Position numbers and translations under genes: made by a program. From Deltaproteobacteria bacterium (GTDB lineage: Bacteria > Bdellovibrionota_B > Oligoflexia > Oligoflexales > Bog-1112), in contig JACPKR010000051.1 in the NCBI GenBank assembly GCA_016186945.1, positions 1-14,624 on the forward strand: a stretch of 14,624 nucleotides of DNA, read 5' to 3'. Of the stretch, positions 7,007-14,051 are shown one piece after another. Under the pieces are notes generated by a model. The model was not told the DNA's origin and did not search any database. It saw only the letters and a program-made list of their open reading frames with translations. The stretch's first letter is position 1. The number at the start of each line of letters is the position of its first letter.

Positions 7007-7441
7007 ATGGAACTGAAGGAAATCGAAAACCTGGTCAAACTCATGCAAAAATATGACCTGCATGAACTTGAAGTGAGGGAGGGGGATAAAAAAGTCAGAC
7101 TGACTCAAGCCCCTTCCTCCCCTATCATGAGGGAAGTGTCCCAGACGCCGACCTATCCCTCTAAAACGCAGGAAAGCGAAGTACAGAAAAAAGAGCCGAA
7201 AGAGAAGCTTCTCGAAGTGCGCTCTCCTTTCGTTGGTACCTTCTACCTTGCGTCAGCACCGGGTGCAGAACCCTTTGTAACCGTCAACAAAACGGTACGA
7301 AAAGGCGACACCCTCTGTATCGTTGAGGCTATGAAACTCATGAATGAAATCGAAGCGGAGCGAGACGGAACGATCGTTGAAATCCTCGTCGAGAATGAAC
7401 AACCGATTGAATACAATCAACTGCTCTTCCTTATGAAATAG
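7007..7441 (+). CDS. accB: Biotin carboxyl carrier protein of acetyl-CoA carboxylase
   Basis: AccB carries the biotin that is carboxylated by AccC and passed to acetyl-CoA by the carboxyltransferase, the committed step of fatty-acid synthesis. The 144-residue protein has a conserved N-terminal helix region ([21 protein letters not shown]). A low-complexity linker follows at about 35-68, rich in Ser, Thr, Pro, Lys and Glu. The biotinyl domain begins at [10 protein letters not shown] (71-80). The biotinylation motif EAMKLMNEI places the modified Lys at 110. Length and order are typical. It starts three bases after efp and is followed by accC, but repeat copy 2 separates accB from accC by 186 bases. 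Confidence 0.97.
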
Positions 7442-7442
7442 G

Positions 7443-7606
7443 AAACGTTTTGTAATACGTAAGCCACTTGGGGCAAAAAGGGAGAGGGGGGTTTGGGGGG
7501 GCGAGGGAACCGTCGCTCCCCCATGATTTTTCTTGGAGGAACCAGCTGCGCAGTTTCCTCCAAACCACCTCCTTGCCCCAAGTGGCTTACGCATTACAAA
7601 CGTTTT
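7443..7606 (+). mobile_element. MITE-like palindromic repeat, copy 2, with 9-bp target duplication
   Basis: The element spans 7452-7597. Its ends are 25-bp terminal inverted repeats (7452-7476 and 7573-7597) that differ at one base; each reads GTAATGCGTAAGCC or GTAATACGTAAGCC inward from the outer edge. The nine bases AAACGTTTT flank it directly on both sides (7443-7451 and 7598-7606), as expected of a target-site duplication. A second, inner inverted repeat TTGGAGGAA/TTCCTCCAA lies at 7533-7541 and 7555-7563. At 146 bp it encodes no transposase, so it must be mobilised in trans if still active. Terminal GTAA and an 8-9 bp duplication recall IS66-type elements, but that link is a guess. Removing it leaves only 31 bases between accB and accC. 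Confidence 0.9.
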
Positions 7607-7627
7607 CAGACAAAAAGGGAGGGCATT

Positions 7628-8947
7628 GTGAAAAAAGTTCTGGTAGCAAATAGAGGGGAAATCGCCGTCCGTATCATTCGAGCCTGCCAGGAACTTGGAT
7701 TGCAAACGGTCGCCATCCATTCCGTAGCAGATCGAGAATCCCTTCATACAAAGATCGCAGACGAAAGTGTTTGCGTCGGCCCCGCAGCGAGCGCGCGCAG
7801 CTACCTTTATATGCCAAGTATCATGAGCGCGGCGGAAATCAGCGGCGTAGATGCCATCCACCCTGGCTACGGCTTTCTCGCTGAAAATGCTGAATTTGCG
7901 GAAATTTGCGAAAAATCGGGAATTTGCTTCATCGGACCCACCCCCCAACAAATGCATAGCCTGGGAAACAAAATCAAAGCCAGGCAGCTAGCTATAAAAG
8001 CCGACGTCCCCCTTCTCCCGGGAAGCGAGGGCGTCATCAAAGAAACGAAAGCCGTTAAACTTGCCAACGAAATCGGCTTCCCCGTTATCATCAAGGCAGC
8101 AGCAGGAGGGGGCGGCCGAGGTATGAAAATCGCTCGAAACAAGGAGGAACTGAAACGACTCCTCCCCCTCGCTCAGAAAGAAGCCCTCGCTGGATTCGGA
8201 AACGCCGACTGCTTCCTGGAAAAATACCTGGAACACCCTCGCCACATTGAAGTGCAAATCATTGCTGACGCAGAAGGCAAGATCCGCCACCTAGGTGAAC
8301 GCGACTGCTCCATCCAACGGCGACATCAGAAGCTGGTCGAAGAATCCCCCTGCCCCGTTCTCGACCGCACACTCAGAGAGAAAGTCGGTGACCTGGCGGT
8401 CCGGCTTGTCAAGACAAACGGTTATCGTTCCCTCGGAACTGTGGAATTTCTCTTCCAAGACGAGCAATTTTATTTCATGGAAATGAACGTTCGCGCACAA
8501 GTTGAACACCCCGTCACGGAAATGGTGACCGGGATCGACCTCATCAAGGAGCAAATCCGCATTGCTCAAGGACACTCACTTAATTTGCCAGAGACAATTA
8601 CCCCTAATGGCCATGCCATCGAATGCCGAATCAACGCGGAAGACCCACAGTCCTTTACACCCTGGCCCGGGAAAGTAAGCGCCTTCCACCAACCAGGAGG
8701 ACCGGGAGTGCGGGTAGATAGCATGCTCTACACGGGCTACACCGTCCCGTCCCAGTACGACTCCCTGGTGGCAAAGCTAGTGACGCATGGAGCAGATCGC
8801 GCAGAAAGCATCGCCCGCATGAGGCGAGCGCTTCGGGAGATGAAAATCGAAGGCATTCGCAGCAACATCGACTTCCACCTGAAACTTATGGAGAACGTAC
8901 ACTTTCAGAAAGGTAACGTTTCCACCCGCTTTCTCGAGTCGTTCTAA
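7628..8947 (+). CDS. accC: Biotin carboxylase subunit of acetyl-CoA carboxylase
   Basis: AccC uses ATP and bicarbonate to carboxylate the biotin on AccB. From GTG 7628 the product is 439 residues (E. coli 449). The N-terminal fold begins MKKVLVANRGEIAVRIIRAC, followed by HPGYGFLAEN at 78-87. The ATP-grasp glycine loop AAAGGGGRGMK is at 157-167 and CSIQRRHQKLVEE at 227-239. The catalytic strand MEMNVRAQVEHPVTEM is at 284-299, with the E..N.R.Q.E metal and biotin pattern intact. The start is fixed by GGAGG five bases upstream and by homology. An open frame continues upstream to 7493, but that part is translated repeat. Its stop overlaps the stop of the convergent gene by four bases. Confidence 0.97.
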   Translation: MKKVLVANRGEIAVRIIRACQELGLQTVAIHSVADRESLHTKIADESVCVGPAASARSYLYMPSIMSAAEISGVDAIHPGYGFLAENAEFAEICEKSGICFIGPTPQQMHSLGNKIKARQLAIKADVPLLPGSEGVIKETKAVKLANEIGFPVIIKAAAGGGGRGMKIARNKEELKRLLPLAQKEALAGFGNADCFLEKYLEHPRHIEVQIIADAEGKIRHLGERDCSIQRRHQKLVEESPCPVLDRTLREKVGDLAVRLVKTNGYRSLGTVEFLFQDEQFYFMEMNVRAQVEHPVTEMVTGIDLIKEQIRIAQGHSLNLPETITPNGHAIECRINAEDPQSFTPWPGKVSAFHQPGGPGVRVDSMLYTGYTVPSQYDSLVAKLVTHGADRAESIARMRRALREMKIEGIRSNIDFHLKLMENVHFQKGNVSTRFLESF

Positions 8948-9451: not shown

Positions 9452-9745
9452 GTGATTTCAGAACCTTACGACACAAAAAGAATCACCGAACTGCGTGAGG
9501 ACATTGCCAAACTAGATAGGCAGATCTTAAAGTGTCTTGCCAAACGGCTTGTCCTGGCGGCAGCATTGGGGGAAATTAAGGAACGTCTTGGTCTTTCCCT
9601 TCAAGACTGCGAGTGGGAAACGGCGGTGCTTAAGAGAAATCTTGAAGCAGGGGCAGAGTATGGACTGAAACGCGAGGTGGTCGCGGCACTGACCGAGTTT
9701 CTCATCAGTCAGGCACTTGCCCATCAAGAGTCTCTGATACTATAG
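9452..9745 (+). CDS. Chorismate mutase, AroQ type (monofunctional)
   Basis: The enzyme converts chorismate to prephenate, the branch point to phenylalanine and tyrosine. The 97-residue all-helical protein matches the AroQ domain in length. Aligned to the E. coli P-protein mutase domain at a constant offset of four, the active-site residues are Arg15 (LRED), Arg32 (AKRL), Lys43 (GEIK), Asp52 (LQD), Glu56 and Gln92 (AHQE). All the main ones are present. There is no fused dehydratase or dehydrogenase and no signal peptide, so it is cytoplasmic. The start is GTG 9452 with only a weak upstream GGA, so the exact start is less certain. The next feature downstream is a multi-hairpin repeat. Confidence 0.88.
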   Translation: MISEPYDTKRITELREDIAKLDRQILKCLAKRLVLAAALGEIKERLGLSLQDCEWETAVLKRNLEAGAEYGLKREVVAALTEFLISQALAHQESLIL

Positions 9746-9761
9746 TATTCAAGATAATCAA

Positions 9762-9884
9762 TTTGGGGAAAAACTTTTTGAAAAAAGTTATTTCCCCAAG
9801 CCCCTTTTCAAAAACTTCAATATCTAAAGTTTTTTGGGGGGAGGCGTGGAGGGGAACTTTTTTTCAAAAAAGGTCCTCTCCACA
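9762..9884. repeat. Multi-hairpin A/T- and G-rich repeat between the chorismate mutase gene and htpX
   Basis: Three inverted repeats sit end to end. At 9765-9797 GGGGAAAAACTTTTT pairs with AAAAAGTTATTTCCCC, with one bulge. At about 9809-9836 CAAAAACTT pairs with AAAGTTTTT. At about 9848-9882 GTGGAGGGGAAC pairs with GGTCCTCTCCAC across T and A runs, with two mismatches. The whole looks like a second palindromic repeat family distinct from the GTAATGCG element. It may stop transcription from the upstream gene. It ends about 30 bases before the htpX start. Confidence 0.7.
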
Positions 9885-9913
9885 AATTCTAGTTAGAACT
9901 TCATACCATCCTG

Positions 9914-11820: not shown

Positions 11821-13404
11821 ATGAATGCGCAAAAACCGTTTAGTCCTCATTGGGCCGACATCGCAGCTTTCCAAGTTGTTCAGAACAAGGGGGATAAAGA
11901 CACATACACCGCGGCAAGTGGAATTACACCCAGTGGGACGGTGCATGTTGGCAATTTTCGAGAAGTCATAACGGTCGACCTGGTGGTGCGAGCCTTGCGA
12001 AGCTTGGGGAAAAACGTCCGCTTCATCTATAGCTGGGATAACTTCGACACGTTCCGCAAGGTTCCCAAGAACCTGCCGGACCCGGAAGCGTTTCAACCCC
12101 ATCTGCGCAAACCTATAGCCCGTATCCCCGACCCTTGGGGATTGGAAGCCACCTATGCCAAAGGTCGCATGGCCTTGTTCGAGAAAGAACTGGCGCAAGT
12201 AGGGATAAGCCCCGAGTACATTTCCCAGGAACAACGCTACTCGTCAGGCACCTATGCAAAAGACATTCGCTTTGCCTTGGAAAAGAAGGATCAAATCCGA
12301 GAGATACTCGACCGCTTCCGTACGCAAGCATTGTCTGAGGATTGGCTGCCGACAGCGATTTATTGCAGCAAGTGCCAAAAAGATGAAATGGAGTACGAAC
12401 GATACAATGGAGAGTGGACTTATTCCTACAAATGCAAGTCGTGCGGGCTGGAAGAACGTGTCGATATCCGCAAGACCCTTAACCTCAAGTTGGCTTGGCG
12501 TATCGACTGGCCCATGCGCTGGGCTTTTGAAGGAGTGGACTTCGAGCCAGGGGGCAAAGACCACTCCAGTGAGGGAGGCTCCTTCGACTCGGGGAAACAA
12601 ATCGTCAAGGAAGTCTGGGGCAAAGATCCCCCACAGTACCTTCAATACGACTTCGTTATGATCAAAGGCGGAGCAGGTAAAATGTCGTCCTCCTCCGGAG
12701 AACTCTACACCTTGTCCCAGGTGCTTGAAGTCTACGAACCCCAGATCGTGCGCTGGATTTTCGCCAACCATCGTCCTAACCACGACTTCGCTCTCGCTTT
12801 CGACGAAGACGTCTTCAAGGTCTACGATGAGTTCGACAAGGCGGAATCCATGGCCCTCGCTCCCGCTCCTCACCGCCCTGGCAAGTGGCCGCTGCTACGA
12901 CGGACTTACGAATTGTCACTGCCTGACGGAAAGTTGCCAAGTGAAATGCCCCAACGACCGAAGTTCCGTGAACTCTGCAGCCGCTTGCAAATCTGCGGAG
13001 GTGACACCGAAAGGACATGGGAGAAATTCTATAAAAACGAAATGGGGGAAAGCAAGAAACCCTATTTCATGCTCCGCGCTCTACGTGCGTGGCACTGGCT
13101 GTCGGAATACGCTCCGGAAGATTTCCGCTATCACCTGCAGGAGAAAAAACCCGAGGGGCTGACCTCACAAGAGGAACAAATCCTAAGCGCCCTGCGCAAT
13201 CTTGTCAGTACTGTCGATCTGGAAACGATCGGTGAACAAGACTTGGGAAACCTCATTTGGGAAAAAGTCATAAAAGCTTTGAATGGTGATGCCAAGCAAA
13301 CCTTTACCACGATTTACAGGTCTTTGATCGGCAGAGACCAAGGACCCCGGCTGCCGAATTTTTTGAAGGAAATTGGCAAAGAAAGACTGATGGAGTTACT
13401 CTAA
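11821..13404 (+). CDS. lysS: Lysyl-tRNA synthetase, class I
   Basis: The enzyme charges tRNA-Lys with lysine. This is the class I form, unrelated in fold to the class II LysRS of E. coli. The Rossmann-fold HIGH-type motif is PSGTVHVGN at 37-45. The KMSKS-type motif is GKMSSSSG at 286-293. A zinc-type knuckle lies between them (Cys182, Cys185, Cys205, Cys208). The 527-residue length fits the class I family. The start ATG follows an AAAGG at nine bases. The symbol lysK is used for this form in some genomes. The lipoprotein gene with repeat copy 3 follows directly and may share the transcript. The identification is firm from both signature motifs. Confidence 0.96.
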   Translation: MNAQKPFSPHWADIAAFQVVQNKGDKDTYTAASGITPSGTVHVGNFREVITVDLVVRALRSLGKNVRFIYSWDNFDTFRKVPKNLPDPEAFQPHLRKPIARIPDPWGLEATYAKGRMALFEKELAQVGISPEYISQEQRYSSGTYAKDIRFALEKKDQIREILDRFRTQALSEDWLPTAIYCSKCQKDEMEYERYNGEWTYSYKCKSCGLEERVDIRKTLNLKLAWRIDWPMRWAFEGVDFEPGGKDHSSEGGSFDSGKQIVKEVWGKDPPQYLQYDFVMIKGGAGKMSSSSGELYTLSQVLEVYEPQIVRWIFANHRPNHDFALAFDEDVFKVYDEFDKAESMALAPAPHRPGKWPLLRRTYELSLPDGKLPSEMPQRPKFRELCSRLQICGGDTERTWEKFYKNEMGESKKPYFMLRALRAWHWLSEYAPEDFRYHLQEKKPEGLTSQEEQILSALRNLVSTVDLETIGEQDLGNLIWEKVIKALNGDAKQTFTTIYRSLIGRDQGPRLPNFLKEIGKERLMELL

Positions 13405-13428
13405 TACGTGCCAAATAGGGAGGAGAAG

Positions 13429-13563
13429 GTAATGCGTAAGCCACTTGGGGCAAATAGGGAGAGGGGGGTTTGGGGGGCGAGTGAAGCGTCGCCTCCCCCG
13501 GATTTCTTGGAGGAACCAGCTGCGCAGTTTCCTCCAAACCACCTCCTTGCCCCAAGTGGCTTA
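13429..13563 (+). repeat. Dispersed palindromic repeat, copy 3 (right end truncated)
   Basis: The sequence begins GTAATGCGTAAGCC, as copy 2 does, and follows it through the central GGAACCAGCTGCGCAGTTTCC block to CCCCAAGTGGCTTA. The last eight bases (CGCATTAC) are missing and are replaced by lipoprotein-gene sequence. There is no stop in the frame that continues into that gene. Bases 13402-13425 just before it (TAATACGT...GGGAGGAG) also resemble a shortened left end of the repeat, so two insertions may be nested. Confidence 0.85.
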
Positions 13564-14022
13564 ATCAAACTATTGCCGGTCATCCTTTTCACCAGCTCAA
13601 TTCTCGGTTGTACAATACTCAAAGAAACCCTGGGATTTGTTGCCCAGAAGCCGAAAGTTGTGATCGAAAGCATCCGCATCGCAAAGGTCGATCTTAAGGA
13701 ACTGAAACTGGAAGTTCACCTTTCGGTTGAAAACCCCAACGCCTTTGACCTCGTCTTGTCCGACCTGCACTATTCAGTCAATATTCACGACAGTGATGTA
13801 GCTTCGGGAATCCACAAAGATGAACTCAAAGTCGCAGCTTACGAGAAAAAAACAATCGAAATCCCCCTTAGCATCCAAACCCAAAACACCCTCCAAGTCC
13901 TCGGGCGCATTCTCTTTGAACGCAAACCCATCCCCCTTCATTGGCAAGGCCAGGCAAATTTCCACTCTCCCATCGGACCCATGATCGTGAAATTCTCAGA
14001 TCAGAAGGAAATAACACTCTGA
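13432..14022 (+). CDS. LEA14/WHy-domain lipoprotein with a repeat-encoded N-terminal extension
   Basis: From ATG 13432 the product is 196 residues. Residues 1-44 are translated from repeat copy 3 (for example RERGVWGASEASPPPDF). After them comes a normal lipoprotein signal, KLLPVILFTSSILGC, with lipidation Cys60. The mature part is an LEA14/WHy-type domain: strands around VVIESIRIAKVDLKELKLEV, the family motif ENPNAFDLVLSDLHYSV at about 102-118, then ELKVAAYEKKTIEIPL. Such proteins bind or protect other envelope components in some bacteria, but the role here is unknown. AGGAG at 13421-13425 is six bases before the ATG. A later TTG at about 13574 would restore a short signal peptide but has no ribosome-binding site. 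The insertion probably removed the original start, so export could be reduced. Confidence 0.8.
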   Translation: MRKPLGANRERGVWGASEASPPPDFLEEPAAQFPPNHLLAPSGLIKLLPVILFTSSILGCTILKETLGFVAQKPKVVIESIRIAKVDLKELKLEVHLSVENPNAFDLVLSDLHYSVNIHDSDVASGIHKDELKVAAYEKKTIEIPLSIQTQNTLQVLGRILFERKPIPLHWQGQANFHSPIGPMIVKFSDQKEITL

Positions 14023-14051
14023 ATTTCTTGGAGGAACGAGCTGCGCAGTTG
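14023..14051 (+). repeat. Fragment of the dispersed palindromic repeat
   Basis: ATTTCTTGGAGGAACGAGCT and the following GCGCAGTT match the centre of copy 3 (13501-13529) with one substitution. Neither end of the repeat is present. It starts just after the lipoprotein stop codon. It is best read as a decayed remnant. Confidence 0.75.

Follow-up and report, generated by a model that had tools for sequence, protein, structure and literature searches.

Bacterial MITEs that coexist with a resident parent IS include MITEAba12 with ISAba12 (PMC6382973) and MITECca01 with IS982 (PMC9769881), and elements of the IS66 family have ends that begin with GTAAGCG and are flanked by 8-bp direct repeats (PMC11946415). 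REP dimers nested in longer palindromes have been described in A. variabilis (GTAG-15) and H. neapolitanus (CGTC-1) (PMC3733652). Here, we analysed a window of 14,624 nucleotides (the whole stretch of DNA under study) from a bacterium whose own genome, hereafter G000, is available as a 2.66-Mb assembly of 76 contigs that is 91% complete. A palindromic element lying between accB and accC in this window is a member of a new MITE family, and with a probability of roughly 0.85 we read it as a non-autonomous cut-and-paste MITE of the DDE type that carries an older, nested hairpin unit.

The element occupies positions 7452-7597 (+ strand) between two genes of fatty-acid synthesis, accB (7007-7441, +), which encodes a biotin carboxyl carrier protein with a Biotin_lipoyl domain, and accC (7628-8947, +), which encodes biotin carboxylase. 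It is 146 bp long, gene-free and about 95% identical to the family consensus. Its 25-bp terminal inverted repeats, which differ by one mismatch, lie at 7452-7476 (+; GTAATACGTAAGCCACTTGGGGCAA) and 7573-7597 (-; GTAATGCGTAAGCCACTTGGGGCAA as reverse complement), and an exact 9-bp duplication, AAACGTTTT, flanks it at 7443-7451 and 7598-7606. The sequence bears out both the palindromic element and the exact duplication reported in the first-pass annotation, 9 bp being the minority length in a family whose duplications are mostly of 8 bp. The right half contains a REP-like core hairpin unit (7527-7577, - strand, reading GCAAGGAGGTGGTTTGGAGGAAACTGCGCAGCTGGTTCCTCCAAGAAAAA), and comparison of the element's two halves identified the left arm (7474-7523, +) as a diverged homologue of that unit in the opposite orientation, which accounts for the palindromic fold. 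As single-stranded RNA, the element folds at -88 kcal/mol (z about -9 to -10 relative to shuffled sequences), and its left arm contains a hairpin (7494-7523) that, followed by TGATTTTTCT, is terminator-like on the sense strand of accB-accC. A search of Rfam returned only sub-threshold chance matches, and searches of plasmid records, phage records and viral contigs gave no match to the element.

The three further copies or pieces previously noted in the window are real. The second copy (1687-1820, -) is a degenerate full-length composite without a duplication, located between divergent ung-like and dynamin-like genes; the third (13429-13563, +) has the same orientation as the accB-accC copy and has lost its right-most ~8 bp; and the last (14023-14051, -) comprises just 28-29 nt of the core hairpin unit. 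The third copy overlaps the 5' end of an ORF for a LEA_2-domain lipoprotein (13408-14022), so that either the element supplies the first ~50 codons of this ORF, or translation now begins within the element or just past it, the original start having been lost. A second, unrelated high-copy palindromic repeat family (about 190 bp, plus shorter pieces) is also present in the window, at 9743-9890 between chorismate-mutase-like and htpX-like genes; 760 kb of G000 contain dozens of its members, including one at C40 about 38,680-38,870. The lysyl-tRNA synthetase encoded at 11821-13404 is of the class I type (tRNA-synt_1f).

Across G000, the 18-nt end motif (allowing up to three mismatches) gave about 294 matches, 143 forward and 151 reverse, compared with none for the reversed control pattern, and the family numbers well over a hundred copies. 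Among 58 genomes of the phylum, this motif was found only in G000, barring two single one-mismatch matches. The 40 near-full copies that were scored showed 92-100% identity, and identity to the family consensus is about 92-99% for most copies, suggesting that a burst took place fairly recently. Target duplications were examined in paired copies (57 distinct, extracted from about 760 kb, or 28%, of G000, together with other individual copies), and the count was restricted to the 32 copies with intact GTAA...TTAC ends. Exact duplications flank 21 of these 32 copies (14 of 8 bp and 7 of 9 bp), and three more have an 8-bp repeat with one mismatch, whereas pairing the flanks of different copies produced a duplication in 0 of 992 control combinations. 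The duplicated target sequences have no obvious common motif. Since the 9-mer AAACGTTTT is nearly palindromic, the accB-accC case alone would be weak evidence of transposition, and it is the family-wide duplications that settle the matter. The family shows traits of a MITE in its short, non-coding body with terminal inverted repeats and in its target duplications of a fixed length class (8 or 9 bp).

Terminal repeats beginning GTAACCC, GTAAAGCG or GTAATACGCAACCC are joined to the same nearly invariant core unit in copies on contigs C52 and C6 of G000 (e.g., C52:87326, C6:34392 and C52:49103). In addition, composite MITEs lie in or beside core-like units at C54:37002-37147, C12:74015 and C32:86545, which suggests nesting or a mild target preference for such units.

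The MITE is a composite, a feature missed in the first-pass annotation, its right half being a REP-like hairpin unit of 47-51 nt (GCAAGGAGGTGGTTTGGAGGAAACTGCGCAGCTGGTTCCTCCAAGAAATC) that consists of the head GCAAGGAGG and a hairpin. When the 146-bp element was compared with 56 relatives, two genomes from two other genera (G005 and G007) matched it only at approximately element positions 73-138. The 20-nt centre of the core unit occurs at 382 sites in G000, 85 in G007 and 61 in G005, and 55 further genomes from the phylum have none. In G005 and G007, the unit is found alone or as inverted pairs of 205-506 bp; the pairs in G007 share a common interior, and none of 13 has flanking duplications. 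Because the unit is present in these two genera without the terminal repeats seen here, the intact core unit is probably older than the MITE. Inside the G000 composites, the core unit diverges from its consensus by 0.7%, compared with 9.7% and 4.4% for the terminal repeats, a contrast tempered by the selection of composites through loose matches to both core and terminal repeats.

The hairpin tip hardly changes within G005 and G007, and the stem below it varies together with its pairing partner. Varying stem positions are 61-97% paired in G007 and 85-89% paired in G005, compared with 40-72% and 45-50%, respectively, after partners were shuffled. Pairing at positions -4 to -7 in G007 and at positions -6 and -7 in G005 exceeded all 200 shuffles, with up to four pair types, showing that the hairpin covaries and that its stem carries compensatory changes. 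By a crude ORF caller that places starts too far upstream, 61% of units are intergenic, compared with 10% of random positions. Units lie between convergent genes in 36% of cases versus 22%, and within tandem gene pairs they favour the strand opposite the genes (30 vs 12), as does the accB-accC copy. Tandem partial duplications of the core unit were observed in G000 at C6:27281, C6:5673, C52:21032, C52:66756 and C32:40323; several of them break in the 5' part of the unit and repeat the flanking sequence upstream of it, a pattern that replication slippage at the hairpin would produce. A similarity between the 3' end of 16S rRNA and the core unit (its hairpin together with CCTCCTT) was rejected, since about 0.5-5% of random genomic windows align equally well with the generic 16S 3'-end sequence used for comparison; the 16S gene of G000 itself is missing from the assembly.

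Of 142 core units in 760 kb of G000, 40 lie in full composites and 38 have neither a terminal repeat nor a partner arm. These solo units match the consensus of the composite units but are somewhat more diverged, and partial copies of the composite exist, which would fit an explanation of the solo units as mere truncated remnants of composites that do not move independently. However, the 34 clean solo units share sharp edges rather than random break points, nearly all beginning exactly at GCAAGG and losing similarity a few bases past TCCAAGAA, and the unit is present in G005 and G007, where the terminal repeats of the composite are absent. We therefore consider the truncation explanation unlikely, although it retains appreciable weight. 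The solo units appear instead to have moved alone; none of the 34 has flanking duplications, and a duplication-free, REP-like route is likely for the core unit, presumably through a single-stranded hairpin, as in REP/IS200-type elements. More tentatively, the core unit may define a new tag class of REP-like hairpins (head GCAAGGAGG, nearly invariant tip GGAAACTGCGCAGCTGGTTCC, a stem that varies but stays complementary) that is spread by an enzyme other than RAYT and switches vehicles. It would travel by itself, in one genus as long inverted pairs, and in G000 inside an amplifying DDE-type MITE, a proposal that we regard as possible, with the odds somewhat against it.

The same properties raise the question of whether the whole 146-bp element could be a REPIN, i.e., a REP doublet that a RAYT-type Y1 transposase mobilises in the form of folded single-stranded DNA, with incidental flanking repeats. 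Two inverted hairpin units with a head, the strong fold, the compensatory stem changes, the intergenic bias and the excess between convergent genes would all agree with this, as would the lower divergence of composite than of solo units, which parallels REPIN doublets and singlets (PMC3116915). However, transposition of the IS200/IS605 type proceeds without larger target duplications (PMC2817692), and this family has them, so that a REPIN origin of the 146-bp unit is largely refuted and very improbable. For the core unit by itself, the agreement is partial: it is a high-copy small palindrome with compensatory changes and no target duplication, but its head is neither of the GTAG/GTGG type nor the CGTC head of CGTC-tagged REPs, and no RAYT flanked by inverted copies of the unit was found. 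No RAYT-like gene for the core unit was recognised in G000, where the Y1 genes are IS200/IS605-type tnpA genes and fragments, and none of the Y1 genes in G000, G005 and G007 is flanked on both sides by the core unit. The IS200/IS605 copies were also rejected as a source of the hairpin, as their ends differ and the hairpin in G007 lies beyond the likely right end of the copy. This IS605-like copy (G007:C16, about 38,871-39,236) has an intact tnpA and a disrupted tnpB, and the diverged core hairpin is found about 90 bp past tnpB, outside the likely right end.

The accB-accC junction of relatives was compared as a possible empty site. The interval between the accB stop and the NRGE motif of accC is 207 nt here, and 52 nt after subtraction of the element and one duplication. 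Four other genera of the family have 47, 65, 44 and 165 nt over the same interval, and the same-genus genome has an assembly gap at this junction and no copy anywhere of the end motif or the core. None of the four spacers contains the element; three (44, 47 and 65 nt) are close to the predicted length, and the fourth (165 nt) consists of unrelated sequence. An empty junction in this bacterium would be predicted to read GGAAACGTTTTCAGAC. Neither of the two conditions that the first-pass annotation named as refuting applies, and the duplications at other copies and the short accB-accC spacers in relatives support the earlier proposals that the element moved as a unit by transposition and is non-autonomous. 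The suggestion that it is instead a fixed regulatory or structural RNA of the accB-accC operon can draw on the strong fold between co-oriented genes and the terminator-like arm on the sense strand, but is extremely improbable given more than 100 dispersed copies in unrelated contexts, their target duplications, and relatives' spacers that do not contain the element.

The right duplication ends 21 bp upstream of the accC start codon and spares a ribosome-binding-site-like stretch, AGGGAGGG (7616-7623), which lies outside the element. Most likely, the insertion does not disturb translation starts and the operon tolerates it. The transcript would form a three-way hairpin with a terminator-like arm, which might lower accC relative to accB. 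Since terminator-like calls in the region are near chance level (2 found vs 1.6 expected), an effect of the folded RNA on accC, or on the AccB:AccC ratio as the first-pass annotation had proposed, is plausible at most. As a strongly folding mobile element tolerated in an operon whose products, AccB and AccC, are needed in proportion, the accB-accC copy is a clean case that lends itself to testing.

The target duplications point to a DDE-type transposase acting on the terminal repeats in trans. Such an enzyme would recognise the GTAATGCGTAAGCC terminal repeats and insert the 146-bp unit, comprising two inverted REP-like hairpin units, one intact and one diverged, between those repeats, with staggered cuts at little-selective targets that leave duplications of 8 bp in two thirds of cases and of 9 bp in one third. 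A transposase with matching terminal repeats, which the first-pass annotation had suggested looking for, did not emerge from searches of G000 for IS66, IS256, IS1595 and DDE_Tnp_1 enzymes: the IS66 (PF03050) search had no match although positive controls did, IS1595 (PF12762) had no match, and IS256 and DDE_Tnp_1 were represented by fragments only. In addition, 760 kb (28%) of G000 yielded no long autonomous element that shares these ends and is flanked by a duplication. The cognate parent may lie outside the assembled sequence, may have been lost, or may belong to another family. As the assembly holds no cognate transposase, we infer the source family from the ends and the 8-bp duplications, which resemble those of IS66 most and suggest an IS66 origin.

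Collectively, two layers of small mobile DNA coexist in one genome: a structurally constrained hairpin unit and a MITE that carries it. They provide a natural system for asking whether an unrelated transposase can amplify REP-like repeats and what moves REPs where a genome lacks a RAYT; to a specialist, the unusual part would be the nested REP-like unit, for which no RAYT is recognisable. The element resembles IS66 in having ends that start with GTAA, inverted repeats of 25 bp and mostly 8-bp duplications, and the GCG of GTAAGCG is present but set off by one extra base (GTAATGCG); however, one third of its duplications are of 9 bp, which is not typical of IS66, and the assembly contains no IS66 transposase. 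With MITEAba12 it shares a short, non-coding body, terminal inverted repeats and 8-9-bp duplications in a fraction of copies, and with MITECca01 an intergenic bias and high copy number, but unlike both it has no parent IS found in the assembly, and its interior includes a separately dispersed hairpin unit. The core unit recalls REP/REPIN systems with RAYT (PMC2817692, PMC3116915) and GTAG/CGTC repeats (PMC3733652) in forming hundreds of small hairpins with an unpaired head, compensatory stem changes, inverted pairs and an intergenic location. It differs from REP/REPIN in its head, which is GCAAGGAGG rather than GTAG or CGTC (PMC3733652), in its 21-nt nearly invariant hairpin tip above a varying lower stem, and in having no associated RAYT found. 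As in GTAG-15 and CGTC-1, REP-type hairpins lie within a larger inverted repeat, whereas the outer inverted repeat described here is itself mobile and generates target duplications.
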